A stretch of DNA of 64,000 nucleotides, from contig JAJFPB010000003.1 in assembly GCA_020881915.1 (NCBI GenBank), positions 620,001-684,000 on the forward strand, read 5' to 3'. Origin of the DNA: Paramyrothecium sp. XJ0827. Its lineage: Eukaryota; Ascomycota; Sordariomycetes; Hypocreales; Stachybotryaceae. The stretch's first letter is position 1; each line of letters begins with the position of its first letter. A model generated the notes under the pieces. The model was not told the DNA's origin. It saw only the letters and a program-made list of their open reading frames with translations, and did not search any database. A program made the position numbers and the translations under genes. This document shows positions 9,221 through 33,076 of this stretch, one piece after another.

Positions 9221-12200
9221 TCACAATCCACCCTCTGCCGCGTCATTTTTCCTGACATTAATGCCCATCTTGACTAGCAAACCAATGGCAACAAACTCGG
9301 CCAGTCCCACCAGCGATTCCGATTTCCCAATCTCCAATACGCTAACATCCAACCCCACCCTTTGCCGAAACCAGCTCCTCAACTCAATTCCGACTAATGA
9401 GTCAATCCCAAACTTTGAAAGCGGCACTGTCACGTCCAGCTCGTCTAGGGGCTTCATCATGAAGCTGAATAGCGTCGTACCAATCTGCTGTGCCAGAACC
9501 GTCACTGTCTCCGTGTCGGCCAGCGCCGCCGGATTCGCCTCCACCTCTGCTAGCAAGCTCCGCAGCGAGTCTTGTTCGCTGGAGCTAACTCCCAATACTC
9601 CGTCCACAGTCTCTTCAATATTGCGGTAGAGGCCCATGCGGGGATCGCGTCGCCAGATTATACGATTGATTGGCGACGCGATTGGCTGCGTGGTGCGCAG
9701 TCCCAGGCCGATCTGGCTGGCATTTATATAACCTTCTCCGGCCTGCGTTAAAGGAGGATCTGATACCTTGAAGGCGAGCTCGAGGGAATCTAGCAAATCC
9801 TGCTCCCGCAGGACATGCACCGACGCCGCGCGGAAATGATCCAAGATATGGGCGTTTCGGCTGACATAGCCAACATCACCCATGGCCCCAATGTTAAGAA
9901 CAGACGCTGGTAGGCCTTGGCCGTGTCTATATTGGACAAAGGCGTCGAGGAAGGTATTGGCGGCCGCATAGTTGGCCTGGCCTCGTTGCCCAACAAGGCC
10001 GGAGAAGGAGCTGAATAGTACAAAGAAGTCGAGCTTGGTGTCCAGGAAAGCCTTGTGCAAGGCCCACGTTCCATTCACCTTGGGACTAATCGCCGCTTCC
10101 CAGTCCTTGTGGCTCATGTCTGCAAATCCGCTGTCCTGGATATCTATTAGCCAAACGAGACAGAAAAAGAAAGGACAGCAAAGAAAGTACTTACCCTCAA
10201 GACCATCGAGGCATTAATAATACCTGCAACGGGGAAAAGAGCCTCCGACTTGACGCGATGCAGGTCATCTGTATTGGTAACGCAACCCTGAATGAGTTGG
10301 ACGGTGCAGCCTGTAGCCGTCAGATCCTCGACAAGCGCGTCAACGACCTCATCTATGCCCAGGGAAGCTCCTGGGGAGAGGTAAATGAGATTCCATGCCC
10401 CACGCGCAGCCATCCAGGTAGATATGGAGCGGCCCAACCCTCCGAGACCGCCGACGAGAAGATATGATGCGTCGGAGCGCAGACTCGAAGGTTTGTGCAC
10501 AGCCGCAACGTCCAACACGCTCGGGTTCGCCGGCATGCGCACCACGAGCTTGCCGATGTGCTGGCCCTTCGACATTGTTCGGAAGGCCTTCTGGATGTTG
10601 ACAGCATCGAACACGGTGACGGGGCGGATAGGCTCGATCAGCCCGTCCCGGTAAAACTCCATGCACCGGTTCAGCAGCTTGCGGATCTTGTCCGGCCGCT
10701 CCGTGCAGATTGGCGCGACGTGGACCCCGAAGAAGGCGCGATTGTCCTCGAACGGGTTCATGGCAAGCTTTCCTTGGCCCATGAAGTCTCGTTTGCCGAG
10801 CTCGATCATGCTGCCAAACTTGGCGACGCAATGCCACTAGACACAAATAGACATTAGCCAGCACTTGGCAGGGGCAAACTTGAAAAATAGTGGGAAAACT
10901 TGCCGATGCGTGGAGAAGATCGCCAGATAGGGAATTAAGGACGACGTCGACGCCACACCCATTAGTCTCCCGCATGACGCCAGCGTAGAAACTCGAGTCG
11001 CGCGAGTTGAAGATGCGGTTGCGTGGGATGTTGAAGTTGTCCTGGAGGAACTGGACCTTTTCATCGTTACCCACCGTGGCGAAGATCTCGGCGCCGAGCA
11101 TTCGACAGATTTGGATGGCTGCGATGCCGACGCCACCACAGGCTGAGTGAATCAAAACGCTCTGGAAAGATAGAATAGTTAGAAAAAGAGAGAAAAGAAA
11201 AAGGTTACCAGAACTGGGAAAACTTGCCTGTCCCTTTTCGAGCCTTGCCAAGTCCTGGAGCCCGTACACAACAGTGCCGTATACGCACGGCATCGTAGCC
11301 GCCTCCTCGAAGCTCAGCCCGTCGGGCATCTTTACGCACAGAGCAGCCGGTGTCTTGAGCAAGGTCGAGTATGAGTTACCGGCAAATACCATGACTTGGT
11401 CGCCAACGACGAGGTCCGACGAGCAGCCGGGCCCAAGGGCTTGCACCACGCCGGCACACTCGAAACCGAGCCCGTTGCCGTCCTCTTTGGAACCGTCGAC
11501 AACGCCCATGGCGATAAGGATATCCTTGAAGTTCATGCCCACTGCGCGAACCTGTACTGCCACCTCGTCGCCGCGGAGCTCCTGCGTCGGCCTGTCCACC
11601 CACTGTAGCGACTTGAGCGAGCCGCGCTTGCCGATCTCGAGGGCCTTGGGCGACTGGGCCGAGTCCGACCGCGAGGACAGCTCCCCAGAGACCGAGATCC
11701 AGTGAAAGCGCGGGATGTGCACGCTGCCATTGGAGAAAGCGAACTCACAGTCGCCGTGAACCCCGTCTGCGACTCCATCCTCCTGCCTTTGCGTGCGCTG
11801 GTACACACCAGCGATGGCCCGCACCGCCGCAGCAGAGGCGTGATCGTCGAGCTCTAGCGTGACTATGCTGTTAACGGACTGCTCATTGCGGAGCACACGC
11901 ATCAGGCCCAGGATGGCTGCATACTGCGGTTCAGAGCTGCGGATTTGGCACGGCCGCGTGAGCCAGAGCAGACCGCCAGCTGACGATGTCTTTAGCAGGA
12001 AGTTCTGGAACTGGGAGTATGTCTCAGCTGAGATATCCTCAAGGATGGCGGAGCCTTCGAGGTCGAGGATAGATATGACACCTTGGTTTGGCTCATCTGA
12101 CAGAGATACAAAATCAACAGCGAAGCCCTCGCCTGCCGGCCCGAGCGCAGCAGCAACAAATTTGGCCACGGGGCCGTTGGGGTTGCACGTAAGGAGGGAG

Positions 12201-15200
12201 ACGGAGGTTGCGACGTGGCGGTTCACGGCGGGTGACGCGACAATGGTGGCATTTGTCTGGAAAGGCATCTCATCATCAACAATGATTGCTTCTGCGCCAG
12301 AGAATCCAGCGTCGGTCAATTCCTGGGTCCAGCGCTTGAGGCCAATATACGGCTCCTCAGGGCGGTCATCGGCTTCTCCTAGCCACCATCCGTGTAGTAC
12401 ACCCTATGATAAACCGAATTTTAGCTCATCGTTAACACTTGATTCATTGGAAGATATTGCTTACTACCGCATAGTTGACCCATCGCGTGCTGGTGCACAG
12501 CTCCTGCATAAGCAGCTTCCCATCCGGCTTGAGCAGCTGGTGGATATTGGCCAGCGTTTCCCGCAGGCAGGGTGTGGCGTGAAGCACATTCGCAGCAACT
12601 ACCAGGTCGTACGAGTACGGCTGGAAGCCCTGGCCCTTAGGGTCCTGGCCAATATCCAGCGGCCTAAACTCCATAGCCTGGGCGCTCTTGAAGCGCTCCC
12701 TGGCCGCCGCAAAGAAGCCTGCGGAGATGTCAGTATAAGTGTATGAGTTGTACAAACGCTCGCCTGCGTCCGTCGTCAGGCCCTTCAGCACCAGCTCTGT
12801 TGTTGCACCGGTGCCAGCACCAATCTCGAGGACGCGTAAGTGTGGCGTCCGGTGGCCCAGCAGGCGGAGGAAGGGCGAGTAATTCCACGCATCAGCCAGG
12901 TTGTACAGCTTGGTTAGGATCTCGTCCTGGCGGAGAATGGCCAGCGGGTCGACGTCGCCGCGGTAGATTCCCTCGATGTCGTTGAAGACGCGCCACACAG
13001 CGATACCGACGGGCGCCACCTGCGTCTCGCGGAGTTGCCGCTCGCACTCGACAATGAGTGCGGCGCGCTCGTCCGAAGGCAGCCCAGTCAGGGCCTTGAC
13101 ATCGTCGACGAAGAGGTAGCCACTCGTCTCCGCCTCCTCTACCTGCTTCGCCACCCAGGTCCGGAACTTGAGCATGTGATCCAGAGGGCTCGGCGGAAGA
13201 GCGGCCAGCCGTTCACGGGTTTCGACGCAGCAGAGCAGCACCAGCTTCTGTAAGGGCCAGTACGGCTCGCGAATGTGCTTGCTTGAAGTGATCAACGCGC
13301 TGGTGTCCTGGAAATTAATATCGGGCTGCCACAGGAGGCGGACGGCGGCGTGCGAGTCCCGCTTGGCGATCTCGTTGCCGTCATCCAGGGGGGTGAGCCA
13401 CACGTCGTGGAGCCTCAGGAGCACCTCCCCTGTGTCGGAGACGCCCAGGCAGTCACCGTGGATGGCGCCTTTGGCTGTGGTCTCCGCCTGGACCTCAATG
13501 GATAGGATGCCGCTGGGCGTGGGCCGGCGGATGTAGACATCTCCCACAAACGTCGGCACCGACATGCGGCCAAAGTCACGGGCCAGGCCCCGGGCGGTGG
13601 CCGCCGGGTAGATCTGCAGGCACGAGTCCACGGTGGCTGGGTGGAGGTGATGCGGGTGCTCCTCCTGTGTGAGGCCGGGGATCTTGTTGGAGAGCATAGC
13701 AGCAGCGACGTCGCGCAGAGGATGCGCCGATGCGTTCTGCAGGCCTTGAAAATAGGGTCCGTAGTTGAGGCCAGCCTCGCGCATGGTCTGGTACCATGAC
13801 TCGCGGTATATCTTCCGTGGGTGCTCCGGGATTGTCCGGGTCTGTGGCGGATCGTCGGACCCGGCTCGGACCTGGCCGGCGCAGTTCTTGGTCCAGACAG
13901 TGCCGTTGTAGGATGAAATGGTGAACTCGTGCCAGATGGAGTCGAGACTGTTCGTCAGTCGCAGCGGCCGCAGCGAGAACATGGTCTCGACCTCGGAAGA
14001 CTCGAGAAGGACCAGGGCGGCGCTGAGCGTCACGTTGCGCAGCGAGTACTCCTCGGCACCGGAGACCTGCCGCATGGCCTCACACGCCATGGTCATGTAG
14101 CCGGTCGCTGGGAACAGGATGTCGCGCCCCAGCATATGGTGCCGGCACCACGGAATCTCGTCGAGCCGCAGCACATTGCGCCACATGGGCTCTAGCTGGC
14201 TGCCCTCGACGACCTGCGAGCCGAGCAACTCGTGGTGCGGGAATCGGCGCAACCGCCACTCCCGGGACACGCGCGACTCGGCCCAGTATGAAGTCTCGTG
14301 GTGCCAGGGGTAGGTAGGTAGGTTGGTAAGGACCTGTCCGGGCTTGGCGATGTTGGCAAAGGACAGACGTACCCCCCTTTGGAAGAGTTGGCCTGCAGCC
14401 TGGAGGAGGCACTGTGCGTCGTTCTCGTTGCGTGTCAGAGTTGAGATGTAGGTTGCAGAAGCCGCTTCGGCGTTTATGATCTGCCGGATCGGCCCAGCCA
14501 GCGCCGAGTGAGGCCCGACCTCGAGCAGGACGAGGTTCTCGGACGGCAGGTCCGTAAGCATCTGTGTTACGGCGGTGTTGAACAATACAGGCGATTCAAG
14601 ATTAGATCGCCAGTACTTTGCGTCGGGGCGAGACTCTGAACCCATTAGATTGCCCGTCACAGACGAGTAAAGCGGCACCGAACATGCCGTAGTGGAAAGA
14701 TATGGCAGAAGAATCGCTTCATAAGCGTCTCCGATCTCTTCCATGTGATCTGGAGAAGCCAGAATGTGAGATGTGTATACAATCAAGTAACCTCAGGGAA
14801 TAAGCACTCACGGGAATGGTACGCCATCTCAACCTTGAGACGCCTCGCAAACACCCCTTCCTCGCCCGCCTTGATGGCAGCCACCACGGCATCGACCTTA
14901 TCCTCATCGCCGGATAGGGTCACGCTGGCCGGACTATTCTCGCATGCCACGACAACCCCGTCTACCAGGTACTGCCGCACGTCATCTATGCCGAGGCCGA
15001 TTGCCGCCATGCCTCCCCGCCGCGTTTGCTGCCTTGTTACCAGGCCGCGCAGGTACGAGCAGGCGATGGCCTCCTGCATGGTAATGGCTGTGGAGGCATA
15101 TGCAGCGGCGATCTCGCCACTCGAGTGCCCGACAACAGCAGTGGGATTGATGCCCCAGCGCTGAAGCTGGTTGAAGATGACCATCTGGACAGCCGTGCAT

Positions 15201-17513
15201 ATGGGCTGTGAGAACTCCGCCTGGGCGATTCGGCTCTCCTGTTTGTCTTTTCGTAGTTCGCCTTCTATGGTCCACGATGGAGGTGGCACCATTTTAGCCA
15301 GTGCTTCGTCCATCATCTTGATGTCCTCCCGCACACCCTCAAACTCGACCATGAGTTGCCTTCCCATCGTGGCCCACTGCGCGCCCTGCCCCGTGAAGAC
15401 AAGGGCCACAGTTGATGCCGCCGAAGGGGCTTTAATGGGTGAGCAAAAACTGGGGGATCCCTCGCCATTAAAGACGGCAAAGGTCCGGTAGGGGAGGTGC
15501 TCGCGATGGAGGGCCAGCGTGTACTCGAGGTCGTCTAGGCTGCCCTGGTGCTCCTCTACGTACTTGGTGTAGCGATCGGCTCCCCTTTTGGCCGAGTCAG
15601 GATGGTTGGCCGTAAGTACGAGCAGCCTGTGCTCTCGCTTCGCCCGCGACGGTGCATACTTGGCCGTTCCTGCAACCAAAGACCGAGCAGAATCGAGGAT
15701 GACGTGCGCGTTGGACCCGCCGAGGCCAAACGAGTTGACACTCACGCGTTCGTCGCGATCCTCAGGCCAGGGTATGCTGTCAACGGGCACACAGAGCTTG
15801 CCTTCTTGGAACGGGACTATGAGATGGTTAGATAAGCTCTAGTGCAGCGCGTAAAGCGAGGGGGTCCATACTTTGGGTATTTGGCTTGCTGTACTTGATG
15901 TTTGGGGGAATTGTCCTTTTTTCGAGGGCCAGGATTGCCTTTATGACACCAGTCAGGCCCGACGCGCCTTCAGAGTGGCCAAGATTCGGCTGTGAGATAA
16001 ATAAACACTCAGTCAGCTCACAGGGTCTTAGCCAAGGCTACGTGAAAACTCCACCTTGACAGAACCGATATATATACCACGCTCCCCAAACACCTTGGCC
16101 ACGGCTGTCGCCTCTATAGGGTCACCTGTCCTCGTACCCGTGCCATGGCATTCAAAGAATCCGGTTCTGCAGTAGTCGGCGATGCCGGCCTCGTGGTAAC
16201 ACGACCGGATCAATGCCTCGTGGCCCGCCGTGCTAGGGTGCGATAGCCCAAGGGTCTTGCCGTCCGAGTTGCTGGCCGTTGCCCGGATGATAGCGCGGAC
16301 GGGATTGCCGTCACGCAGCGCATCGTCAAGTCGCTTGACATACAGCATGTTGACGCCCTCGGCCCTCGCATAACCATTGGCGGCGGCATCAAACGTCTTA
16401 CTAGAGACGTCAGGGCTGAGGACACCCTGTTTGAACATGAGCTGAGTTGCTGTCGGCGCGTTAGTATGACCAAGCTTTGTTTCATTCTGTAGACTTACTT
16501 GATGGGCTAAGAATCAGATTCGAGCCTCCGATCACGGCGGCGTTAATCTTGTTCGCCCGGAGGGCTTTGCATGCCAAGTCCAGGCCAACTAGGGCGGACG
16601 AGCAGCCAGTGCGAATTGTCATGCTACGGTTATGTTGGTGAGGAAGCACTAACGCATAGATTCGTTGGGTCTAGAGACGTGCTTACCTTGGACCTTTAAA
16701 ATCGTACTCGTATGAGATTCGGTTGCCAAGAAGGAAGTCACCATGGCCGGTGAGTTTGTACATCGCCAGCTCCTGTGGGTCTTTTGAGTGGATGTCGAGC
16801 CAGTCTTCCCCAAAGACTCCGATGTAGCAGCCGATGTCCTTCCCACGCCAGTTCAGCTCACCAGCATTTTCGAGGCATTCTCTGCATGAGTGATTTCAAG
16901 ATTAGAAGAGCAATGTTGAGAATCTGAGGACATCGTATACAACTTGCCTTGTGAGCTCTAAGAGGAGACGCTGTTGAGGATCCATCCATTCCAGCTCGTG
17001 CTTCGTCATGGAAAAGAACGAGGCATCGAATTGTGCGAGGTTTACATGGTTCAGGGTGTAGCCATAGACTTGGTGCTGCACGCTTGCGTCTGCTTCTGTG
17101 CCCGTAAGGTCAGTGTCATTCATGAAGCGCTCATAGTCGGCCGATTTATCGACCTGCTTCTGTGAAGCGTTGCCAAAAAAGGCGGCCGCATTATACCGGG
17201 ACTCAGGAATCAGGGCGCGGGCGTCCCGCTTGCTAATTAGAAAGTCCCAGAACTGCTCTTCTGAGTTAATGTCCCCGGGAAGCCTCATAGCCATCCCGCA
17301 GATGACAAGCGTCGACGAGGATGTGCCCTCGATGTTGGAGCCAGAGCTGCTCATCTCCGCTGATGAGGTAGATGTGGTTTCTACCACCGGGATGATGTGC
17401 TGCGCATTTGTGGTCTCTGAATCAGAGAGAGACAGAAAGGCGCCGGTGTGGCATGGGGCTGGTGCCTTGTCTTTGAGGAACTGGCTGTCTGGCATCGGAT
17501 CAAGGGATATCAT
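9221..17513 (-). CDS. Highly reducing type I polyketide synthase (KS-AT-DH-MT-ER-KR-ACP)
   Basis: Iterative synthase that builds a reduced, probably C-methylated polyketide chain. The spliced model has 11 exons and 2,559 residues. The KS triad is Cys261 (TGCSS), His397 (ECHGTGT) and His432 (NLGHSEG). The AT Ser is about 698 (GHSSG). The DH has His1005/1006 and Asp1176 (HPATVDS). The methyltransferase SAM motif EIGAGTG is near 1443. The ER nucleotide motif HSACGGVG is at 1960-1967. The KR has GGLGGLG at 2170 and active Tyr2311. The ACP phosphopantetheine Ser is 2501 (GIDSL). All seven domains look intact and no thioesterase follows the ACP. Introns: 10136-10194, 10837-10903, 11162-11227, 12404-12464, 14750-14811, 15817-15871, 15990-16054, 16450-16498, 16624-16686, 16882-16947. 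Three of them have GC donors. The start is the ATG at 17513. The product cannot be predicted from sequence. Confidence 0.95.
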
Positions 17514-18468
17514 GGTCTCAAAATATACTAACAGGACAAGACGGTTAATACGTGTGGGTCTGTGTATTGCGAGTTGAACATCAAAAACATTAACAGCCTC
17601 GATAGGCTCTCGATACTATCTTAAGTATGAGACGGCCTGACATATGCCTAGGTAGAGCCAGACGGAGTGCCAAGCCACAGACAATGGCGAGCTTCAGGCG
17701 AGCAGAGCAAATTCTCGATCACCAACATCACCCCCTGATCTGAAGTGCAGGCTCCCCATGTAGGCCCGGAACTTGCCTACCACAATCATGAAGAACTAAT
17801 TTGCTATTGGAACATCAGTAAGCCCCTTGTTGTTCTACAATCCATGTCGGGAGCACTTCTCACACTGTGCTATGTCAATCCTAGATCAAGGCGTGCTCTA
17901 CAGGCCTGCCCAGGTTTCAAGGGTTGGGAGGGGGGGGGGGGCAGGCTTGATGAGCCATGTCAGTTGGCGTGTAAATAACATGATAAGCTTGTGCAGGGAA
18001 GGTAAACTTGATTTGTCGTCGGGCACCGCATCATGACATTGTTGTAGCATTGGGGGCTGTAATAGCTACCTCGGCCACCATGATCGGACATGCGGAGTTG
18101 GGATGAAGATTCCTGGACCGTGCCGACATAGGATCATCTGATCCGTTATCTAAGCACGCGTCCGTTCAGCCGCCTCGCGCACAACCAACTGCATAAACGT
18201 CGAGCGAGGAAGACGGTTAATCCAGAGCGCGAAGGAGTCGCTTGCAACAACGCAATCCTAATTCCATGGTCGCATTGACGGTGAGTGCTACCCATCCGGT
18301 CTTGATAGTGTTCAATGCACATGGCGGGCCAGCGTCACCGCAGGATTCTCTGGTTACAAAGGTGCAAAGCCTCAAACAGCCTCATGTCATGGTATGCGGG
18401 GGCCGGTCGTAATGTAGTACTGGATTGTGTGTGCATTCTCCCAAAGGGGAGACTCTCGGACATGTTGG
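17514..18468. promoter_or_regulatory. PKS upstream region
   Basis: Intergenic space between the PKS start and the P450 stop, both on the minus strand, so it should contain the PKS promoter and the P450 3' UTR. A G homopolymer of about 13-15 bases lies near 17929-17941. Scattered CGG triplets occur near 18080-18100, but no convincing paired Zn2Cys6 site was seen. No coding region. Confidence 0.5.
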
Positions 18469-21400
18469 TCAAAACACATCCGCAGCATAACGGTGTCGGA
18501 TAATGTCTAGCCACCACTCCTCCACAGCCTCGTCATTCTTGAACCCGCACCTCTCCTTGGCTACCTCGGAGTAGATGTGCATCGCTGCATCCTTGACCCC
18601 AGCGCTCAAGCTGCGGCTGCCACACACATAGACTCGTGCCCCCTGATCCCACAGCGAGACCAACTCCTCTCTATCGGCGTAGACCCGTTCTTGGGCATAC
18701 CGAGGCAGGGAGCCCAGCTGTGTGCCCCCTCTTTCGGAACCGTCCGTTTGGTGTGCCGACTCTGCTGAGTACACCCACCGCACACCGCTTATCGCCCCTG
18801 AAGCCTGCCACTCGGACAGCTCATCAGCGTAGATGGCCTCCTGCGCGTCCCGACAGCCAATGTATAGCAGGGATGTAGCGAGGGACTTCGCCATCGACGG
18901 CTGGCGACGGAGCATCTCGGCACGATGCTCCACGAAGCCCCGAAATGGCGCGATACCGGCCCCTGCGCAGACCATGATAATTGGCACCGATCCGGCGTCT
19001 TCCCAAGGAGGAGGACGGAACCGGTCTTTACCCTGGCGAACCATCGCTCTGAAAGTTTGACCTGGCACGAGCCCGGCAAGGAAACTCGACGCGAGGCCCA
19101 TGACGGGTGCATGGTCTTTGAGCCGGGCGCTTTTATACGTCATGACCGGTCGGTCCATCAAAGTCAAAGTTAGTGTGCAACGGGAGGGGGAAGAGAGTGG
19201 CGAGGACGAGATTGAGTATGGGCGGGGCCGTATGGGCGGCAGCATAGAAGCCAGTTGGTCGAGGGAAATCGAGACTGTCGGATAGGCTTCCAGGAGCTGT
19301 AGCAAGGTCGGTGCCTCATCGCGGCTAGAGTGGATGGAAAGCTCATTGGCCAGTTCTGCGAGCGAGTCTCTGTCTTCCTTGCCAAGACACGTTTCCAAGA
19401 GCTTGCCAACTTGCTGTACACTCTTTATCAGTCTCCATGTAGTGCTCAAACCTTTCACAAAACATACGGTAACAGTTGCGGGCTGGTTGAGCTCGAGGCG
19501 GTCAAACATCGCCATAATAAGCGGCTCCGCGTCCTCTCGGGTGGCAATCTTGAAGACACGCAGCAGTCTTTCTAGGTCCTGCTGCGAGTTCTTCGGCCAG
19601 ACCTCGAGGTAATCGCCCACATCATACGTCGTGCCCTTGGGAAGTCGCAGCTCCACGTGATACTTTGGGCGCTTCGCCGACGCCGTCATAGCCTCGTTCC
19701 GGACAGCTTCGACCTGCACGCCCATTACGGGATCCTGATCCATTAACAGCGACAAGTAGCTCACCCGGTCGCCAGCGGCTGGCTCCTCACCGTAAAGCCG
19801 GGACACGCCCGGCCATAGCTGCTCCGTCGTCCAGCGCTCAAAGTCGCCCAATATGTCGCCCTGGCTCGCATCGGTGGTCCCCCGCTCGGCAAACGCGGTG
19901 GCGCCTTGATCGTTGAGGAGGCCTTCAATAAGGATTGGGGTGACTTGGTAAGTATGGAACCAGTCACCTAGCTGAGTGATCAGCACAAAGCAGCTATCGT
20001 CATGAAGGAGCAGGTGTTTGTACTCACGGTTGCCACAGCCAAAGATGGAGTAGTTTACCCGCTGGAGGTTGGCGCTCTGGGAACTTTTGAGCCATTCAAT
20101 GAACTTGGCTCCATTGTCTGTTCAGTTTTATTAGTTCCCTTTCGACATCCTGTATACTCGCGGGTGAAGAAAAAGCAGTGTCTCGCCTGGATGGTCCTCG
20201 TAGCTCGCAATCACAAACACCATAGGATTCCGGCTTGAGATCGACCCAATTGCCTGGTCGAGAGGATCAACAGTACACTTGAAACCTCTCAAAAAGGCCG
20301 AAACAGCTAGTCTCTCAGCAAGGCCTTTGGATGTTCCAGTGTTTGATCCATAAAAAACTGACATTGGTCGTAGTTTGCTGTCCATACCCGCGCTGGAAAC
20401 ATCACGATAGGGCGTCGTGTTGACGTCTGAAGAGACGGAGCATATGCCGCTAAACATCTCTTTCTGCAGAGACGTAGCGTCAAGGCCGTCACGGAGCCTG
20501 GCATGCATAAACAGGCCCCGTGGCTTGAGTGTCAGTGTCTGTTTGATTGAGAGCTTGTAACTTGAATCGGCCAGTTGAAAATTAAATTTCTGGAACAAAA
20601 GGGTTGTAACGAGGATCGCTTCCTGGATTGCAAAGTCCGAACCTACGAATCCATTGGTAAGTCCGAGACTGCACTGTTGTTCCCGTTGAGACATTATTTA
20701 CCTATGCAAGCCCGGGCCCCGTTTCCGAATGGCTGTGACAAGATTAGCACTATTCTCCGTGACAAGACACTGTTGAACTGACCTTCCAGCAGTTTTTGGG
20801 CAGCGCCCGGAATTCGTCATCTAGCATCCTCTCTGGTTTAAACTCCTCAGCGTCATCGCCAAACACGGCAGGGTCTCGGTGTAGCTTCGGAGACAAGATG
20901 AGCACCGTCTGGTTGCGTCGGATGGGCCACTTGCCTGCCAGCAAAATCTGCTCGTCACCGCCCTCTGTGCCATCGTTGGGAAGGGGCGAGACGCCATAGA
21001 CAGCGGCGGTCGGGTACAGCCGCAGGGTTTCCCGAATGCTAGCCTTGACGTAGGAAAGTTTGCTCAAATGATCAGCTTGAATAGGCCCTTTGCCAACAAC
21101 GTCATCGACCTCTTTCTGTAGCTTGGAGTAGGCTTCTGGGTGGGACATGAGTAGGTAGAACAGGAACGACAGCAGGCCAGATGTTGTTTCGTGTCCTGTT
21201 CTGAAATCAGTAGTCATTATGGGCAACCTATCTCAAATAAACCCACCAGCAATAAGAAAGGTAATCATGTTGTCAATAATGACATCGTCGTCTAGTTTCT
21301 TTCCAGTGACTGGGTCTTGCCGATTTAGCATGGCGTCAAGCAGGTCCTTTTTGGCGCCGGAGCCTTTGCTTCGACGTTTGGTAATGACCTTGGCGGCCAT

Positions 21401-22201
21401 CTGATGAAGATATGATATAGTATCGTGGAACTTCTGGTCTGCTTCCCACATGAAAGAAGTGATAAAGGCAGGCCTGCTTGAACGAACTTGAGCTTCTTGC
21501 ATAACTGTCCTCATGGCGTCTACAAAGGGGTCCATATCCTCTTTGTAGAACGAGTTGAAACGCGTGTCCATAGAGCACCTTAGAGTTGTCAGTTGAAGTT
21601 TCTCCAGCAAATTTGAGATGACATACAATGCAATTGTGTCAAGGGTGAGTCGTGTAAAGTCATCAGTGACGCTAATCACATTATCATCACCAGCTCTAGC
21701 CCATCGAAGCACTGCCTGCGAAGCAATATCAAGCATTTCTAAATGAAAGAGAAAATTACAATCAATAATCTGCAATGTTGGAGGCTAGCAGCAAATCTAC
21801 CTGGAAACATGTTCTGCACTGGTATCGGCCCAAACGCTGGCACAAGCGTCCGGTGAGCCACATCCCAGTACTCTGCGCCATGAGGAGCGGTAAAGAGTCC
21901 CTTGGGTGTTACATTTTGAAGCTGTTTGATGGAACCTATGGGGATTTTGACGAATTCTTTGCGGGAGGAGACTTCGTTGACGAGCTCGTGACTGCTAATG
22001 AAGATGCGGTCGTCACCCCCAAGACGCAGCTTGTATATGGAACCTTATTTGTCAGAAGTGCTTTGACCGAAGCTTCCTCGCGAATTTCTTACCATAAGTC
22101 TCCGCCAGATCTGAGAAGCATCTGACAGTGTCGTTGATGTCGACGTCTCTGAGGTTTCCAATGATGGGCCAGCCCGGTGGCCCGGGGATAGGTGTCGGCA
22201 T
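18469..22201 (-). CDS. CYP505-family self-sufficient cytochrome P450 / NADPH-P450 reductase fusion
   Basis: Bifunctional monooxygenase of the P450foxy/FUM6 type, which hydroxylates fatty-acid-like chains using its own reductase. The spliced model has 10 exons and 1,076 residues, usual for the family. There is no N-terminal membrane anchor; it starts with a PPG-rich P450 entry. The I-helix is AGHETT (about 265-270), the K-helix ExxR is ETLR, and the heme loop is FGNGARACIG with Cys412. The flavodoxin motif YGSNTGTSKG follows, then FAD/NADPH domains ending with EEWW...RYATDVF-like residues. Introns: 19414-19467 (54 nt, in frame, so its removal is inferred from family spacing), 19968-20027, 20118-20186 (GC donor), 20643-20701, 20733-20782, 21196-21246, 21579-21626, 21739-21800, 22044-22092. 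It sits head-to-tail with the PKS, suggesting it oxidises the polyketide product. Confidence 0.93.
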
Positions 22202-22653
22202 CTTCTAGGCACGTGGTATTCCTCTAAGAACTGGAGCTGGTCGCGTTGAGCTATGGGAGTGAGCATCTACTCTCTCTTCTCTCGCCCGCGTGTTGCTCCT
22301 TGCCAGAGTCTCGGGTGTGAGTAGCCTCTGTATGGCGTGTTGGTCATGTCATCTTCCTTTGTCCTTAGCGGGGTAGCCTGAGAGTAGATTATATTTAGCC
22401 ACTAGGATCATCGGGCTTTCACCAGGTCAAGGCGCTGCGACGCACACGGACAGGGATAGTCACCCTTGCAGCCTTCAGGCAGGCTACACCCCCCAATTTC
22501 TAAGAGTGTGGGTGGCAGAACTTGGCTTCGTCTTTTCATAGTCGTCAAGAATCCCGAGCCTTGGGCATCACTTCGTTCGCCGTCTCAAGACTTGCCTTGA
22601 AGTTGCAATTTACCACCTGAATGGCACACCAACTAAACTGTCGAGCCAAAACC
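22202..22653. promoter_or_regulatory. Shared divergent promoter of P450 and transporter
   Basis: A 450-bp space between divergent start codons. An A/T-rich TATA-like run (about 22386-22400) lies roughly 190 bp upstream of the P450 start and 255 bp upstream of the transporter start. The shared promoter would allow co-regulation of oxidation and export. No specific operator was identified. Confidence 0.45.
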
Positions 22654-24527
22654 ATGCCCAAAGCCGACGACGCGCCCCAGATAGAAGCCCAGGTGTCTGA
22701 GCCGGGCCGGAGCGTCGTCGAGAATCCGATCAGCGAAGAAGCCGACTGGAAGATGGGGAGGCAGGAGCTCACAATCCTTCTGACCATGGCATTCCTGTGC
22801 GTCGCGGTCGCCGTAGGTATTAGCCTCTCCTCCAAGCCATGAACAAGTTAATAACTTTTCTCTTTCAACACAGCTCGATGCCTCCATTTTGGTACCCGCT
22901 TTACCAGTAAAGACAAGCACAAATAATCAACGACCATAGAACCTATCACTGACCATACGTTAGACTCTTGCCACAAACTTAAACGGCTCGGCTATCGAGA
23001 CTTTCTGGGCCGGCACATCCTACCTGCTCTCCAATGCCGTCTTCCTCCCCTTCATGGGCGCCCTGTCCGATGTCTTTGGCCGCCGCGCCATACTCCTCCT
23101 CTCACTTTTCCTGTTCACCGTCGGCACAATAATCTGCTGCACTGCCAACCACTTTCCCCAGCTCCTCACCGGCCGTACCGTCCAGGGGATCGGCGGCGGC
23201 GGGCTTATGACCATGGCCCTGGTTATCACCACGGACATCATTCCGCTGCGGCAGCGGCCCAAATACCAGACAATTATATCCGCTGCGTTTGGAGTTGGGG
23301 GGGTCTTTGGCCCACTGACGGGCGGACTGATTGCCGAGCGTACCACGTGGAGAGTGAGGAGAAGCCCCGAGATGATGAGAGAGGCGGTCTTGCTGACGGT
23401 GCTTTGCAGTGGCTTTTTTACGTCAACTTTCCGTTTTGCGCCATCGGCTTTCTCGTCACACCCTTTGCCATCAAATTAAAACCTGAGCGCCGGCTCAGCA
23501 TTGGCGAGGCCCTGCGGCAGATTGACTGGCTCGGCGGGGCACTGTTCATCGCCGGCGTCTCCAGCTTTCTCCTCGGGCTGACATGGGGCGGCGTGCAGTA
23601 TAGCTGGGCCTCGTACAAGTCGTGGCTACCCATGCTTCTTGGGGGCCTTGTGGTGGCCGCATCGCTCTACTACGAAGCTAATGTCCCCAAAGTGCCGTTC
23701 ATGCGCCTCCGTGTGTTCAATAGTGCCTCTGCGGGGATCATTTTCTTTTCCACTGCCATTCAGGGCTTCATTGTAAGGCCTCGTCCAGAAGGAGACATGG
23801 TCATACGTCAGTGAACAAGGTCGGCTAACAATGGGCTCAGCTTTACTCCCAGCTATATTATTTGCCGTTCTACTTTGCCTCTGTAAAGGGCGCTAGCACA
23901 ACCCTCGCCGGCATTTTTATCATGGCCGTAAACATCATCCTCTTCCCTGTTAGCATCGGCGCTGGATTGGCAATGACGCGCATGGGGACGTACGTCTGGT
24001 CAGTCCAGATAGGCTTCGTCATCATGACACTTGGCAACGGCCTCTTGATCTATTTGAACCAGCATAGGTCTATTGTAGAGCACCTGTTCGTTTTCCTCTT
24101 ATCTGGTGTCGGCCATGGCTTTTTACTCGGTTCTCTCAACTATGCGAACCAAGCAACGGCTAAGGCGCAAGACGTTTCCTTTGCCGTGTCCATGTTCACT
24201 TTCATGCGGGCATTCGGGATATGTATAGGTGTGGCTGTTGGCGGCACCGTCTTCTCTAACATGCTACTCGATGCGCTGAGGGACGGTGGAGCGAGTCTCG
24301 AGCAGGCACAAGCGATCACGGAGAGCTCTGAGGCATTTGTCTCAAGGTTGAACGACATGTCGGACAGCTCCATCAAATCGGCGCTGATTACCGCCTACGT
24401 GGAAGGGTTCCGGGGCATCTTCTATGTCCTAACAGCTTTTTCTGGCTTCTGCACCATTCTCTCGTTTTTCATTACACCATATAACATGAACGTAGCCAGG
24501 GCATCGGGCCACCGCCTGGACAAGTAA
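22654..24527 (+). CDS. MFS efflux transporter, 14-TM drug:H+ antiporter type
   Basis: Plasma-membrane transporter likely to export the product of the neighbouring PKS. The spliced model has 5 exons and 543 residues; introns are 22813-22873, 22907-22963, 23354-23409, 23773-23840. It shows the DHA signature GALSDVFGRR between early helices, the RTVQGIGGGG region, and antiporter motif C (GVGGVFGPLTGG) just before the third intron. Many hydrophobic segments continue to the C-terminus. The start at 22654 is chosen because it has A at -3; an in-frame ATG at 22621 has a weaker context and would add 11 residues. The family includes aflatoxin- and trichothecene-type cluster pumps, but the substrate is inferred only from position. 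Confidence 0.88.
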
Positions 24528-25985: not shown

Positions 25986-27680
25986 ATGTCTAACTTGACC
26001 GAGGTTCTGACACTACTACCCAAGGCGGCTGTAAGATTCTTCCCCGTTCCACAATGAGCCGACATTTTGAAAGAACAAGACCAAGCTAACACACTGATTC
26101 TTAGGTCAATTGCCTTGTCGCGGCTATCAGTAACTCCACTTGTAAATTCGGCGACACAGCATGCACCTGCGCAAGCCCAACTGTCCAGGGCCAAGCGGCC
26201 CTGTGCATCGCCGCAAACTGCACGATCCGTGAAGCACTTTGTTCGCCTATTCCCTCTTCCCAAGCGCTCTTCCCAATCTCCAGAACACTTAACTGACCAT
26301 TCTATCTTTTTCCAGACACAAAGAACCTCACCGCACCATTATGCGGCGCCGAACCAGAAGTCGACCACTCCTTCGATGCCCCTTTCATCGCATTCGTGGT
26401 TCTCGCGGGCATCGCCGTCATACTTCGCCTAGTATCCAGGGTCGTGACGAGAGCAAACTTATGGTGGGACGACTTGTGCAACGTTTGTGCCTTGGTAGGG
26501 CCCTCGTACAAGAACGCGCAGCGCATGGCTCCGACTCACCGTATAATAGATTAGTTGCGTTGCTTTCACAGCTATTGGCTTTCGACGTATGCCATCATCT
26601 AAAAGCACAAATCTATCACTTTGCACAAGATCGCTAACAGGTTTGCAGTCAAGGACCTTGGCTTTGGCACCGACATGTGGGCAGTTCCGCACGAGAATAT
26701 TACAGAAATCTTGATCGTACGTTACTTCTCACGTCCCAGTCTCGTCCCCAACCATTTACTAAGAATCAGGGCTACTATATTGAATTTCTCTTGTACGGCT
26801 TGGCTCGTCTCTTTATCCGCATCTCTATAGTGCTCTTCTACCTTCGAATCTTTCAATTGTCGAAAGCCCGATTCGTCATGATTGGAACCATGGTTGCTAT
26901 GTGCTGCTTGTCAGCCTCATTTATCACTGCAACTTTATTCCAATGTACACCGGTCAAGTTCTTCTGGTTAAAGTGGGATGGGACACACAAGGGTCATTGC
27001 ATCAACACCACTGCAATGGTGTGGGCGAGTTCCATGTGCGCGATCGTCTTTGACTTTTGGCTCTTTTTCGTGCCTATCCCATTCATTATAAAGCTGAAGC
27101 TGTCGTGGAAGAAGAAACTTCTCGTCTCAATCATGCTGTTTGTCGGTATTGCGTAAGTTTCAGCATGGTCTAGGTCTTCATATTTTGCAGAGGCTTACCG
27201 AGTAACAGGGTCATCGTCATAAGTATTCTTCGAGTACCGTACATCAACGAATTTACAAAGACTCACAACGTGACGAGTGAGTATCATGCCTTTCCCGTTT
27301 GTTCTTTTAATAGTGCTAAACGGATCATAGAGGACTTTGTAGGCATCGGTATTTGGTCAGCTCTCGAAATAGACGTTGGCATAATTTGCGCTTGCATGCC
27401 AAGTATCCATGTCCTTTTCAAGGTACTGAAGCGCAAGCAATGGACCACGACGCGCAGCTCCGCGAGCCATCAATTTAGCCCCAGGTTAAAGCCTTCCGCT
27501 GGTAATGGACGCGGACCGTTCTCGAGAATTAATGTAATAAAGACGATCCAACAGAGCACTGCAACCGAGTCGGAAACACATCTCCCGCTCGACTGCAATA
27601 TCTTTAACAAGGTCGATATTGAGCTTACACCAGTTAGGAACGGGTCTTTCAAGAACTACGAGTTGAGCATGGACAAATAA
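25986..27680 (+). CDS. Pth11-like receptor with N-terminal CFEM domain
   Basis: Seven-helix fungal GPCR-like protein of the Pth11/rhodopsin-like family, used in sensing surfaces or host cues. The model has 8 exons and 420 residues; introns are 26031-26104, 26241-26315, 26506-26571, 26587-26640, 26717-26769, 27153-27208, 27277-27330. The cysteine-rich CFEM segment covers about residues 16-70 (Cys18, 28, 35, 37, 49, 54 and one near 67). The family marks LGFGTDMW, FLYGLARL...SIVLFYLRIF, LFQC and [23 protein letters not shown] are all present. No classical signal peptide is obvious before the CFEM region. The 15-nt fourth exon and its borders are inferred from phase. A close paralogue lies at 41666-43162. 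Confidence 0.85.
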
Positions 27681-28630: not shown

Positions 28631-30259
28631 TCAAGCAAGGGGATATCGAGGGTTCTCTCGCAGTTGTTCGCCGTAGATCCAGAACAGAGGAGGAATACCA
28701 CAGCCCACCACGGCGATAAAGCCAAGCAGACTATTTCCCCAGCCATAGCCCAGTTGTTCATACATATGCAATGCAAAGAGCGGGAAGGTAGCCGCAAATA
28801 TTGAACGAGATACAGTAATCGCGGCCATGGCAGATGCAGCATGTATGGTGAACGTATCTATCATATAGGTGGCGACAGACGACATGATGACGATAAATCC
28901 GAAGCCGGCGATGAGAGTCCCCAGTAGCGGCGCTGCCCAGTGGACATGGTTTTGCGCTGTCCAGCCGTAAATGAACAACCCAACAGGGACAAACGGCGAC
29001 CCAATGATGGTTAGCGGAAGACGATACTCTGGCTTCGGCCGTTGATCACCGTGTTTCTTAGTGAGATGCTGGATTATCTTATCCGAGGTAATTCCATAGA
29101 CGAGCATGCCTGTTAGCATCCCGATACCAGAGCCAATGTAGGTCAATCCAACAATACCCTCATTGAATTGGTAGACGTCCGAGAACAAGAAGGTGAAAGT
29201 GGTGAAGAAAAGGTAGAGCATGGCATATATGAATGCGTTGTACAAGCTGAACAGGCCGCAAATAGGTGACAGGAATAAGAGTTTTGCCGGACGAATAGCG
29301 GCTTGTATAAAAAGATCCTTAGTCTTGAGGCCGTGATCTTGTTTAGATCGCAGATTCTGGTTACCGGTCGCCTTCTGGAGTCGTTTTGTCTTCCTCTGCA
29401 ATAGCACTCTTGGGTTACTTTCTCGAAGAACGATCATACTGCCAAGCATTGCCACGCCGGAGGAGATGGCAACCAGCCAAAACAGCCATCGCCAGCCCGC
29501 AGCTTGAGCTAAGAAGCCACCTGCAACAGGACCAATGACAGGGCCAGCTACCAGAGGCAGATTCCAAACCATGATGCCGAGTCCGCGTTTCTCTGGGGGC
29601 AAAAGATCCACAATTGTGCCACCACCGACCGTGAGTGGAGCGCAGCTGAGCAAGCCGGCCAGGAACCGAAACCCGACTAGCATATCCATGTTCGATGAAA
29701 GAGCGCAGGCAATGTTGAGGATAATGAAGCTAATGTTTCCGGCATGATATATTGCGACTCTTCCGAAGATGTCGGCGAGGGGCACTAAGATAAGAGGGCC
29801 ACTATTCAACGACGTACGGGTCAGCACAAATCGTAGGGGTACGAGGAGAAAGGACACCATACGCCACGTAGCCGAGAAGGAAGATGGACACAACAAATGT
29901 GGCGAGTGTTGGATCGTGATTGTTGAATTCTTTCTGCGCCTGCGGTACTCCTGGAGCAAATACCGATGAGGCTAGTGGACTGAAGAAGGTGATTGCGGCA
30001 AGCGCGCCCACATTGGCCCATTTTTTCGTAGCCGGCCTGGTCTCAACTATTAGCAAGAAGCATGGTCTGTTGGCGACAGAGTCGTAGCTAACCAGTTTTG
30101 AGGATTCTCTGGATCATCGGGACCGTCCCAATCGACTATGTTTGGGTCGATTTCCTCTTCGTCAGCAGTACGTTGGACCTGTTGGGCTTTTTCCACGTCC
30201 TGGACGGTCTCGCTGTTGCGCGGTAAATCGCCAACGTCTGTGCTAGATGCCGCAGACAT
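28631..30259 (-). CDS. MFS multidrug/polyamine-type transporter (12-TM DHA1)
   Basis: Plasma-membrane drug:H+ antiporter family member of 503 residues with two introns (29802-29862 and 30037-30092). A hydrophilic acidic N-terminus ending in the typical WDGPDDPENPQNW motif leads into twelve predicted helices. GPLILVPLADIFGR (loop 2-3) and the motif-C-like region GPVIGPVAGGFLAQAAGWRW are present. The start is the ATG at 30259; the longer frame to 30274 begins with a non-ATG codon. The stop is at 28631. The gene is convergent with the decayed gene to its left and divergent from the HET gene. Substrate unknown; relatives export azoles, cycloheximide or polyamines. Confidence 0.88.
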
Positions 30260-31399
30260 CGCAATGGCGCTCAATCCGTAAGATTATTTAGCAAAGAAAG
30301 CTTTGGTATTATCTTACGGTCGTCAAATAACGAATATGCCTGAGGTGCTTAATATAATAACAGATCGGTAGCAGTTTTATAAGACGAAATAAGTGGGATA
30401 CCCCGGCGACGTGAACCAGGCTCGGTGCATCGCTTAATGTAGATTGAAGCGGTGGCTGACCAACCCACCTCGGGTCGACTCTCGGCGTCTACCGCAGTCC
30501 TTGCGGAAATGACATGATTGTCAATCTTGGGCCCTCACGCATAGAAGAGTTAAGCTGCCACCCGGCGGCGTTCTTTGGTAGCACGACGGTACGGGCCCCA
30601 TATGACGGCGGATTATCATAAATTATTAGCTCACAGAGAGAGTTTGGGCTGCTCGAACAGCCTTATTGATGTCCATACAGTTACAGAAGTTCGCGTGCAC
30701 CATCGCCAAATCATGCTCAGATCATAGATCTCGGCAGGGTCTCGGCGTTGTGGCAGCTCATGCGTATTTGATTGGTTCATCCCAAAAGGGTAAGTCGCCG
30801 TAGGGCGCCGATCAACCAGCGCCGACGCCGAGGGCCGACGTCTTTACAGCACGACGACCGCCTCTGCAGGTTATGTAATGGTCGGCCCAAGGCGAAGAAA
30901 CCAGGCTTTTGTCTTGTAGAGCCTCCGAGTCACGCTCATGCTCTAGGCCGCGACCTCATATTGCTAAGCACAAGAGTCCATCTAAGCTTACTCGGACAAA
31001 TCTAAACGATCCATGTTTAGAAATCGACTCCTTCTCAGCCCACGCACAAAGCAGGGCGACCAAACAAAAAGCGGTTGCCGTGAGAATGCTCAGGTTGACA
31101 TAAATAATATATCACCAGCTTTCGTAAAATAAACACAACGGTTGCCCAATGATTTGTGGCTTGAATGGTGCCTGTTTAGGATACCCTATAGAATGCTGGA
31201 TCCCTGTCGTGCACGACATGGATACAACATCACGTGTTAGAGGCCTTGCGCACGATTTTCAGCTGAGGGTCCAACGCTACCACCATCAGCATGAATCAGG
31301 GGCCAATGATATGTTCACATCCAACTAGCCTGGCAGGAAAGCTTTCTCTCTATCACCTCCACTACAACTTGGTTAGGCTGGCAACCGCCGGTGCTCGAG
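30260..31399. other. Intergenic between divergent genes, no gene recognised
   Basis: 1.1 kb between the MFS and HET starts. Short ORFs at 30772-31005 and 31291-31497 lack recognisable content. It is the likely promoter region for both genes. Confidence 0.4.
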
Positions 31400-33076
31400 A
31401 TGCGGCTCTTAAATGCCAAGACACATCGACTGGAAGTCTTCACAGATTCGGCAATTCCTCCGTACGCGATACTGTCTCACACTTGGGGCCAAAATGAAGT
31501 CACATTTCAGGATATGCAGAGTTTCCAGCCGGGCACCACTGGTTCTACTCAAGATGCCGATTCGGGGTACAGCAAGGTCTTGCATACCTGTGGGCAGGCT
31601 CTCCAAGACGGGCTCTCCTACGTCTGGATCGACACTTGCTGCATTGACAAGTCCAGTAGCGCGGAGTTGACCGAAGCAATTAACTCCATGTTCCAGTGGT
31701 ACCAGCGAGCTGCAGTTTGCTACGCCTACCTCTCAGATGTTCACAATACTGAGGACCCAAGACGGCCGGACTCCGAGTTCAGAAGGAGTAGGTGGTTCAC
31801 TAGAGGCTGGACCCTGCAGGAACTTTTGGCTCCACGCATTCTTCTCTTCTATTCTCGCAGTTGGCAGTTCATCAGCCCAGTCAATGGTCTCTATGAGACA
31901 ATAGAGGATATCACGGGCATTGAACGTTTCTACCTTCAACGGAGTTCGTCACAATGGAATTTCGTCTTCCGTCAAGCTAGTGTTGCGACACGGATGAGCT
32001 GGGCTTCCCTGCGAGAAACAACGAGGCTTGAAGACAAAGCATACTCTCTCCTCGGTATCTTCGACGTCAACATGCCGCTTTTGTATGGCGAGGGCCACAA
32101 GGCCTTTATTCGCTTGCAAGAGGAGATAATGAAGCAGACCGACGATGAAACAATCCTGGCGTGGGATTGGATCCGAAATGGTAGTAGTCTCGACGTCCCT
32201 CAGCATGGGTTTTTAGCAACTTCGCCGGTGCACTTTGCCAGTCGTTGGAAACTCATGCCCTGGTCCAGCGCCGGTAGCGGAACGGCCTTTTCCATAACAA
32301 ATAGAGGACTTCTAATCACGACACTTTTGAGAGATGACGCAAACGACAGTGGAGAGCCAAGATACCTTGCGATCCTCAGATGTAGCAGCAACATTGACCA
32401 CAACTATGGTATTGCTCTTCCATTGAAGAAGCTCGACAACAGCCAGACCAACCGCAAAGATGTTCCTTGCTTCTCTCGCACCGACGAAGATCCGTTCAAA
32501 GTCTTTGTAGGAGAAAGCAGCCGCTCCGCATCGGTGACCAATATCTGTATCTCGGCCCGACCTTGGTGGCCAAGTACGATATTCGAGGAATCGTGGTCGC
32601 TAGGCTTGCATGTGCCCAAGCTACCAAAGGGCTGTTTCATCGTAGCTGCATACCCCCCAAACGAGTGGTCGCCTGTTGATAATGTCGTTCTTGTCAACCA
32701 CAGGAGCAAGCACGAGCCACGATACATTGGAGCCAGCTGTGTCGACGGAGAATTCGTCATCAGGGCCCGGTTTGTGTCAGACTCTTGGAAAGTTGACTTG
32801 GCCAACGGGCAGCTGTGGGACCCAGCCCTAAGCCAAGCTCGGCATTTGCGCAGCCTGGATTATCGCGATGAGATATCCATCAATGGCCGTGCGTTGTGTT
32901 CCTTTGTGGAAACAAAATATGTCTTTCAGCGGGAGTTGATTATTATAGACGTAGAAGAAAAGCTGGAGGACTGGAGATGGGAGCTAGTGACCATCGCAGG
33001 AATGATTGTAGGTATTGGGTTTGTATTTACTCAAATGATTCCATTTCTGGAGCCCGGGAAGAGGCGTCGTCTTTAA
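31400..33076 (+). CDS. HET-domain (heterokaryon incompatibility) protein
   Basis: Single-exon, 558-residue cytoplasmic protein. The HET domain occupies about residues 20-150 and shows its three signature blocks: YAILSHTWG at 22, VWIDTCCIDKSS near 74, and RSRWFTRGWTLQELLAPR near 125-142. The remaining 400 residues resemble the C-terminal half of similar HET proteins (EDKAYSLLGIFDVNMPLLYGEG, KAFIRLQEEIM). A hydrophobic segment near the end (TIAGMIVGIGFVFTQMI) could be a membrane anchor. HET proteins mediate allorecognition and programmed cell death in fungi; whether this one is active in incompatibility is unknown. Start: MRLLNAK is the usual family start. The longer frame at 31391 lacks an ATG. 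Confidence 0.92.
   Translation: MRLLNAKTHRLEVFTDSAIPPYAILSHTWGQNEVTFQDMQSFQPGTTGSTQDADSGYSKVLHTCGQALQDGLSYVWIDTCCIDKSSSAELTEAINSMFQWYQRAAVCYAYLSDVHNTEDPRRPDSEFRRSRWFTRGWTLQELLAPRILLFYSRSWQFISPVNGLYETIEDITGIERFYLQRSSSQWNFVFRQASVATRMSWASLRETTRLEDKAYSLLGIFDVNMPLLYGEGHKAFIRLQEEIMKQTDDETILAWDWIRNGSSLDVPQHGFLATSPVHFASRWKLMPWSSAGSGTAFSITNRGLLITTLLRDDANDSGEPRYLAILRCSSNIDHNYGIALPLKKLDNSQTNRKDVPCFSRTDEDPFKVFVGESSRSASVTNICISARPWWPSTIFEESWSLGLHVPKLPKGCFIVAAYPPNEWSPVDNVVLVNHRSKHEPRYIGASCVDGEFVIRARFVSDSWKVDLANGQLWDPALSQARHLRSLDYRDEISINGRALCSFVETKYVFQRELIIIDVEEKLEDWRWELVTIAGMIVGIGFVFTQMIPFLEPGKRRRL

Follow-up and report, generated by a model that had tools for sequence, protein, structure and literature searches.

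Gene organization of the locus

We analyzed a 64,000-nucleotide stretch of contig JAJFPB010000003.1 from Paramyrothecium sp. XJ0827 (hereafter the window), in which genes for a highly reducing polyketide synthase (HR-PKS), a CYP505-type self-sufficient cytochrome P450 and a major facilitator superfamily (MFS) efflux pump lie side by side. The PKS and P450 genes are arranged in tandem on the minus strand with 955 bp between them, and the P450 and MFS genes diverge from a gap of 452 bp. A preliminary description of this DNA had proposed a compact cluster reaching from 9221 to 24527, and these ends coincide with the stop codons of the PKS and MFS genes, respectively. The divergent promoter region it had assumed for the P450 and MFS genes corresponds to the gap at 22202-22653. 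The features are as follows:

9221..17513, minus strand: HR-PKS gene (spliced model, Pfam, motif alignment, homologue search)
17514..18468, no strand: PKS upstream region from the PKS start to the P450 stop, 955 bp
18469..22201, minus strand: CYP505-type self-sufficient P450 gene (spliced model, Pfam, PDB sequence matches, homologue search)
20702..20732, minus strand: 31-bp exon with the P450 haem-binding motif PFGNGARACIG (spliced model)
22202..22653, no strand: divergent intergenic region between P450 and MFS, 452 bp
22654..24527, plus strand: MFS efflux pump gene (spliced model, Pfam, homologue search)

The spliced PKS gene comprises 11 exons and encodes 2559 amino acids (aa), with the ATG at 17513 and a sole, terminal stop codon that ends at 9221. 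Pfam searches delimited a ketosynthase (KS, residues 69-460), an acyltransferase (AT, 606-928), a dehydratase (DH, 974-1259), a C-methyltransferase (MT, 1442-1547), an enoylreductase (ER, 1842-2140), a ketoreductase (KR, 2164-2341) and an acyl carrier protein (ACP, 2483-2537); no domain follows the ACP. The methyltransferase is of the Methyltransf_12 type and carries the S-adenosylmethionine-binding motif LEIGAGTG. In an alignment of the window PKS with six relatives the motifs of all seven domains were intact, two residues were private to the window and one column was absent from the window only. The earlier view of an intact seven-domain reducing PKS thus holds, and the enzyme is predicted to act as a highly reducing fungal PKS that includes C-methylation.

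The P450 gene consists of 10 exons running from 22201 to 18469 and encodes 1076 aa with a single terminal stop. Four Pfam domains (P450 haem, flavodoxin/FMN, FAD and NAD) are fused in one protein. This fusion of haem domain and reductase, together with the haem cysteine motif, marks the protein as a CYP505-type enzyme, in agreement with the self-sufficient P450 described before. The MFS gene has five exons, one of only 33 bp, and encodes 543 aa, again with a single terminal stop; MFS_1, TRI12 and Sugar_tr were found in its product by Pfam, and the first two fit the proposed efflux pump. Four distinct 9-mers, two of them overlapping, occur in the divergent gap as well as upstream of the PKS when both strands are considered. 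Since about three would be expected by chance according to our estimate, we claim no regulator site for the upstream regions.

Short introns and introns with GC donors were placed manually, guided by splice sites and conserved motifs. The PKS and P450 models were compared with homologues, and the MFS model was built from splice sites and motifs only. For the P450, a 1092-aa model that retained one 48-bp intron was used in the full tree and in the searches of Pfam, homologues, the own genome and PDB. GC donors occur in four of the 19 introns of PKS and P450, three of them reading GCAAGT and one GCGAGA:

16947-16882, 11227-11162, 10903-10837 and 20186-20118: GC-donor introns

The first 13 bases of the introns at 11227 and 10903 are identical. 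No GC donor was seen in the four MFS introns, in 13 introns of two other CYP505 models or in seven introns of the models for two genes to the right of the trio, a CFEM protein and a second MFS.

Relatives and linkage of the three genes

Homologue searches were evaluated for the 120 best matches per gene, to which all statements on matches in this text refer. The best PKS match was a Clonostachys rosea protein (P0001, 2560 aa) with 77% identity at 99% coverage, and the remaining matches did not exceed 55%. Among them was crs5 [Clonostachys rosea] (P0026), a named relative with about 50-51% identity, for which we found no paper in the open-access literature. The P450 was most similar to a protein of Clonostachys solani (P0121, 66%; 64-66% across Clonostachys), and matches beyond this genus included Stachybotrys elegans with 56% and Diaporthe amygdali with 49%. 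For the MFS pump the best match was again from C. solani (P0241, 82%); the second by score reached 58%, and another one (P0244) showed 61% identity over 92% of the query. Outside Clonostachys the ceilings among the listed matches were 55% for the PKS, 56% for the P450 and 61% for the MFS. In phylogenetic trees, that of the P450 being midpoint-rooted, the grouping with Clonostachys received a support of 1.0 (PKS), 0.999 (P450) and 1.0 (MFS), and a haem-domain tree calculated from the final 1076-aa P450 model gave the same grouping. These trees point strongly to Clonostachys as the nearest relative of each of the three genes.

Relatives of the three genes also tend to lie together elsewhere. With identical contig sizes taken as a sign of a shared contig, relatives of PKS and P450 co-occurred on seven contigs, those of PKS and MFS on 20, those of P450 and MFS on four and all three on one, among 118 distinct PKS contigs. 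By the same measure a linked partner was present for 25 of the 60 PKS matches ranked 1-60 and for one of the 60 ranked 61-120. The co-location of PKS, P450 and MFS genes is more frequent than expected by chance. In C. rosea the PKS (P0001) and a P450 (P0122) appear to reside on one contig, as do the P450 (P0121) and the MFS pump (P0241) in C. solani. Only for two species do gene numbers show that the genes are neighbours or nearly so: in Diaporthe amygdali the P450 N8I77_013353 adjoins the PKS N8I77_013354, and in Pycnora the P450 M1827_006610 is located near the MFS gene M1827_006612. Moreover, one 17-member clade (support 1.0), apart from the other listed CYP505 matches, takes in 10 of the 11 P450s linked by contig, the remaining one being that of Pycnora.

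Several observations weigh against a conserved three-gene cluster. Relatives of all three genes share a contig in Pycnora only, whose P450 is the one outside the linked clade. No MFS match was seen on the C. rosea contig with the PKS and P450, and a CYP505 match was present on just one of the 20 PKS/MFS contigs; therefore, PKS/MFS loci do not regularly include the P450. The node below the grouping of the window with Clonostachys was weakly supported (0.067 for the PKS and 0.215 for the MFS) and does not fix the place of this pair within the wider group. Besides, contig sharing was deduced from equal sizes and not from a read gene order, and some of the contigs are many Mb long. These patterns would be best explained if the three genes belonged to a larger set of PKS/MFS loci that occurs in several ascomycete groups and in part includes a CYP505 gene.

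It is also conceivable that the P450 and MFS genes form a unit of their own, for instance in lipid or xenobiotic handling, and that the PKS is a mere neighbour. Both genes share a promoter region, and the same genome harbours a related divergent pair for which no PKS match was detected within C13:668001-698000:

C13:680000-684460: divergent pair resembling the window P450 and MFS genes, 33-68% identity by piece

In addition to C. solani, two contigs (621779 and 1013046) carry P450 and MFS relatives with no PKS among the 120 listed. However, PKS relatives are linked to MFS relatives on 20 contigs and to P450 relatives on seven, and nearly all linked P450s constitute a separate clade. Furthermore, the P450 match of the C13 pair lacks most of the reductase, and stops occur in the matched pieces of the pair, some of which may represent unspliced introns; the pair may be a remnant left after the loss of a PKS. 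We consider an independent P450/MFS unit quite unlikely and favour a common function of the three genes.

Related copies in the host genome and origin of the cluster

Further CYP505 genes were detected in the host genome. Four of them (C12, C13, C10 and C7) belong to the PKS-linked clade, which then comprises 21 members with a support of 1.0, and a fifth (C3) is found among the other CYP505s. The locus on C12 combines P450 and PKS sequences:

C12:3282864-3289079: CYP505 haem-domain open reading frame (ORF) and PKS stretch (own-genome search)

Here, an open haem-domain ORF of 483 aa (3289079 to 3287628) precedes a PKS stretch of the same orientation, which matches residues 1059-2536 of the window PKS in stop-free pieces with 45-59% identity each. 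One stop codon lies between the haem-domain and the PKS frames, and a search of C12:3273001-3303000 gave no significant match to KS or AT. The C7 gene (about 1758220-1761765) is full-length and 78% identical to a Paramyrothecium foliicola protein. Other own-genome matches to the PKS protein did not exceed 52% (E ≤ 1e-80; 18 of 256 candidates scored). Across the whole genome we counted 128 ketoacyl-synthase domain pieces, which are exon pieces and not genes, indicating many PKS-type loci.

The close relationship to Clonostachys might result from horizontal acquisition of the cluster from a Clonostachys-like fungus. The identities of 77, 66 and 82% (PKS, P450 and MFS) are separated by a gap from the values of at most 55, 56 and 61% among the listed matches from other genera. 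Seven matches, six named as Xylariales and one unnamed, cluster with the housekeeping-type CYP505 of C3 (support 0.987), and the C12 PKS stretch likewise groups with Xylariales (0.984). In addition, the GC content at third codon positions (GC3) is 0.71 in the PKS, 0.62 in the P450 and 0.70 in the MFS gene versus 0.51-0.59 in six of seven other window genes. However, GC3 is not diagnostic, as an amino-acid permease of the window reaches 0.706, another PKS locus of the same genome 0.723 and the C3 CYP505 stretch 0.89. The placement of the C3 gene is weak because no named Hypocreales were seen among the housekeeping-type CYP505 matches, and the high identity of the C7 gene to a Paramyrothecium protein also speaks against a transfer. 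If a degraded ribosomal DNA fragment of the host is of Hypocreales type, as its signatures suggest, shared descent with Clonostachys would be ordinary. Shared descent and horizontal transfer are both possible, and we regard a transfer as rather unlikely.

The fragment in question, located at C9:2907943, is a rearranged and mutated rDNA-like stretch that includes a 5.8S piece, and it looks like Hypocreales type by its internal transcribed spacer signatures.

Comparison with known systems

The closest counterparts of the trio are the loci of C. rosea and C. solani, with 77% identity for the PKS, 64-66% for the P450 and 82% for the MFS and with PKS+P450 and P450+MFS pairs on contigs that appear to be shared. 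These loci are uncharacterized as far as we found, and they are known here from lists of homologues and not from gene order. Since Clonostachys possesses orthologue-like PKS, P450 and MFS genes and similar pairings are seen in other ascomycetes, the preliminary description went too far in calling the locus the strongest candidate for an undescribed pathway. In the open-access literature we found no paper on this set of PKS, CYP505 and MFS genes.

Two HR-PKSs of C. rosea have been studied by gene deletion or for their effects. Deletion strains of PKS22 lose the clonoroseins, which are antifungal methyl-substituted octenoic and octanoic acids, and effects on biocontrol and on a polyketide of the formula C15H28O3 are ascribed to PKS29, according to the available text of that study (PMC6177402). 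There, the nearest relatives of PKS22 are PKSs of Rosellinia necatrix and Podospora anserina, and those of PKS29 are the same Rosellinia PKS followed by one of Madurella. The window PKS has matches in both of the former species (R. necatrix P0009, 53%; P. anserina P0034, 50%). This link to PKS22 is indirect, as it was drawn by species and not by accession. Judging from the portion of the report at hand, PKS22 and PKS29 have the same domains as the window PKS and differ from it in that their listed neighbours lack a P450 and in their lengths of 2490 and 2378 aa, respectively (PMC6177402). With 2560 aa, P0001 is probably neither of the two. The comparison with PKS22 and PKS29 was made by description and not by sequence; given their different neighbours and lengths, they are no more than cousins of the window PKS.

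No release enzyme, ligase, nonribosomal peptide synthetase (NRPS) or transcription factor adjoining the trio was detected in an ORF-based scan, which genes with short exons could escape. An aminotransferase of family PF00155 was absent from the window ORFs, the nearest scored one on the contig being about 4.4 Mb away (9 of 52 candidates scored), and no Zn_clus match was obtained within about 140 kb of the trio in a whole-genome search (150 of 474 candidates scored). The earlier statement that no release enzyme or regulator is adjacent agrees with these scans.

The pairing of PKS and CYP505 had been likened to FUM1 and FUM6 of the fumonisin cluster. This comparison is a functional analogy between enzyme classes: fumonisin biosynthesis also employs an HR-PKS and a P450 that is tabled as a CYP505 in the accessible part of one survey (PMC5869400), and some PKS matches are named 'FUM1' at the source, for example P0030 with 50% identity. 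One might accordingly expect a cluster for a fumonisin-like sphinganine analogue, in which an aminotransferase releases the PKS chain and a FUM6-type P450 oxidizes it. However, as far as the available text shows, homologues of the FUM cluster hold 11 genes in common, including FUM8 and FUM21 (PMC12821873). Neither a FUM8-type aminotransferase nor a FUM21-type regulator nor other members of this gene set were found near the trio in the ORFs scanned, and on this part of the contig the scored candidates yielded no aminotransferase. Moreover, in a comparison by name and not by trees with verified FUM sequences, FUM1 and FUM6 of Fusarium were not named among the 120 best PKS or P450 matches. A fumonisin-like pathway is thus highly improbable from the ORFs and candidates scanned.

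Fatty-acid hydroxylases of the CYP505A type (P450foxy, CYP505A7) resemble the window P450 in the fusion of haem domain and reductase and in the expected subterminal hydroxylation of acyl chains. The other listed CYP505 matches are 39-43% identical to it and lie outside its 17-member clade; P450foxy itself was not among the proteins compared. A gloL-named PKS of the pneumocandin side-chain type (P0074) is an HR-PKS with 46% identity to the window PKS. The pneumocandin acyl chain passes to an NRPS, whereas neither an NRPS nor a ligase adjoining the window PKS was found in the ORFs scanned.

Two further candidates from the literature were set aside. The putative TMC-151 cluster comprises an NRPS-like enzyme and sugar transferases in the portion of the paper at hand (PMC5999785) and does not match the trio. 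A second report gave no match either, as CYP505 is not mentioned in its available text (PMC8403587).

Proposed pathway

Based on its intact domains, the PKS would act iteratively and form a largely reduced, methyl-branched chain. The CYP505-type P450 would then introduce a hydroxyl group into this chain, with a subterminal carbon as the most likely site, as suggested by its family: CYP505 enzymes hydroxylate fatty acids at the omega-1 to omega-3 positions, according to the accessible part of the survey cited above (PMC5869400). The MFS pump presumably exports the product. Because no domain follows the ACP, chain release might be spontaneous or intramolecular, or it might be accomplished by an enzyme encoded elsewhere.

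The acids that depend on PKS22 and the chemistry of CYP505 enzymes make a reduced, methylated, hydroxylated and exported chain the best reading. We therefore assign a probability of roughly 0.6 to the interpretation that the locus is a compact secondary-metabolite cluster of Clonostachys-related genes for a medium-chain, fatty-acid-like polyketide that is methyl-branched, hydroxylated and exported, a view that draws on sequence comparison. Such a cluster is plausible but fairly ordinary.

A broader proposal is more speculative and in our view doubtful. According to it, a family of minimal clusters, consisting of an HR-PKS and a pump and sometimes a CYP505, would extend from Clonostachys to lichen-related fungi and produce exported in-chain-hydroxylated methyl-branched acids, with no dedicated release enzyme and with self-release by the PKS that is perhaps aided by the P450. 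Related loci of the host might have been reduced repeatedly, one of them to a P450 haem domain next to a PKS that lacks KS and AT.

If the parts act as suggested, hydroxylated, methyl-branched natural products resembling fatty acids could be made via three genes, and the locus would offer a clear-cut system in which to ask how chains leave an HR-PKS that has no release partner. The Clonostachys relatives are biocontrol fungi in which another PKS is needed for antifungal acids; a role of the cluster in competition between fungi is therefore testable.

Genomic surroundings

To the right of the trio, Pfam searches identified the following genes in the window:

25986-27680: CFEM/fungal-rhodopsin-domain protein
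28631-30259: second MFS
31391-33076: HET-domain protein
35177-37183: T5orf172 protein
41981-42685: second fungal-rhodopsin-domain gene
55541-57016: fungal transcription-factor domain PF04082, the nearest in the window, about 31 kb beyond the MFS stop

We take the CFEM/fungal-rhodopsin-domain protein to be of the Pth11-like type. To the left of the PKS, the segment 1140-8802 is AT-rich, with a GC content of 0.16-0.27 per kb and dinucleotide ratios typical of heavy repeat-induced point mutation (RIP), and the GC content is normal beyond it. This block, which lies beyond the PKS stop at a distance of about 0.4 kb, is flanked by two direct repeats of 300 nucleotides that are 90% alike, and it looks like a RIP-degraded long terminal repeat retrotransposon.

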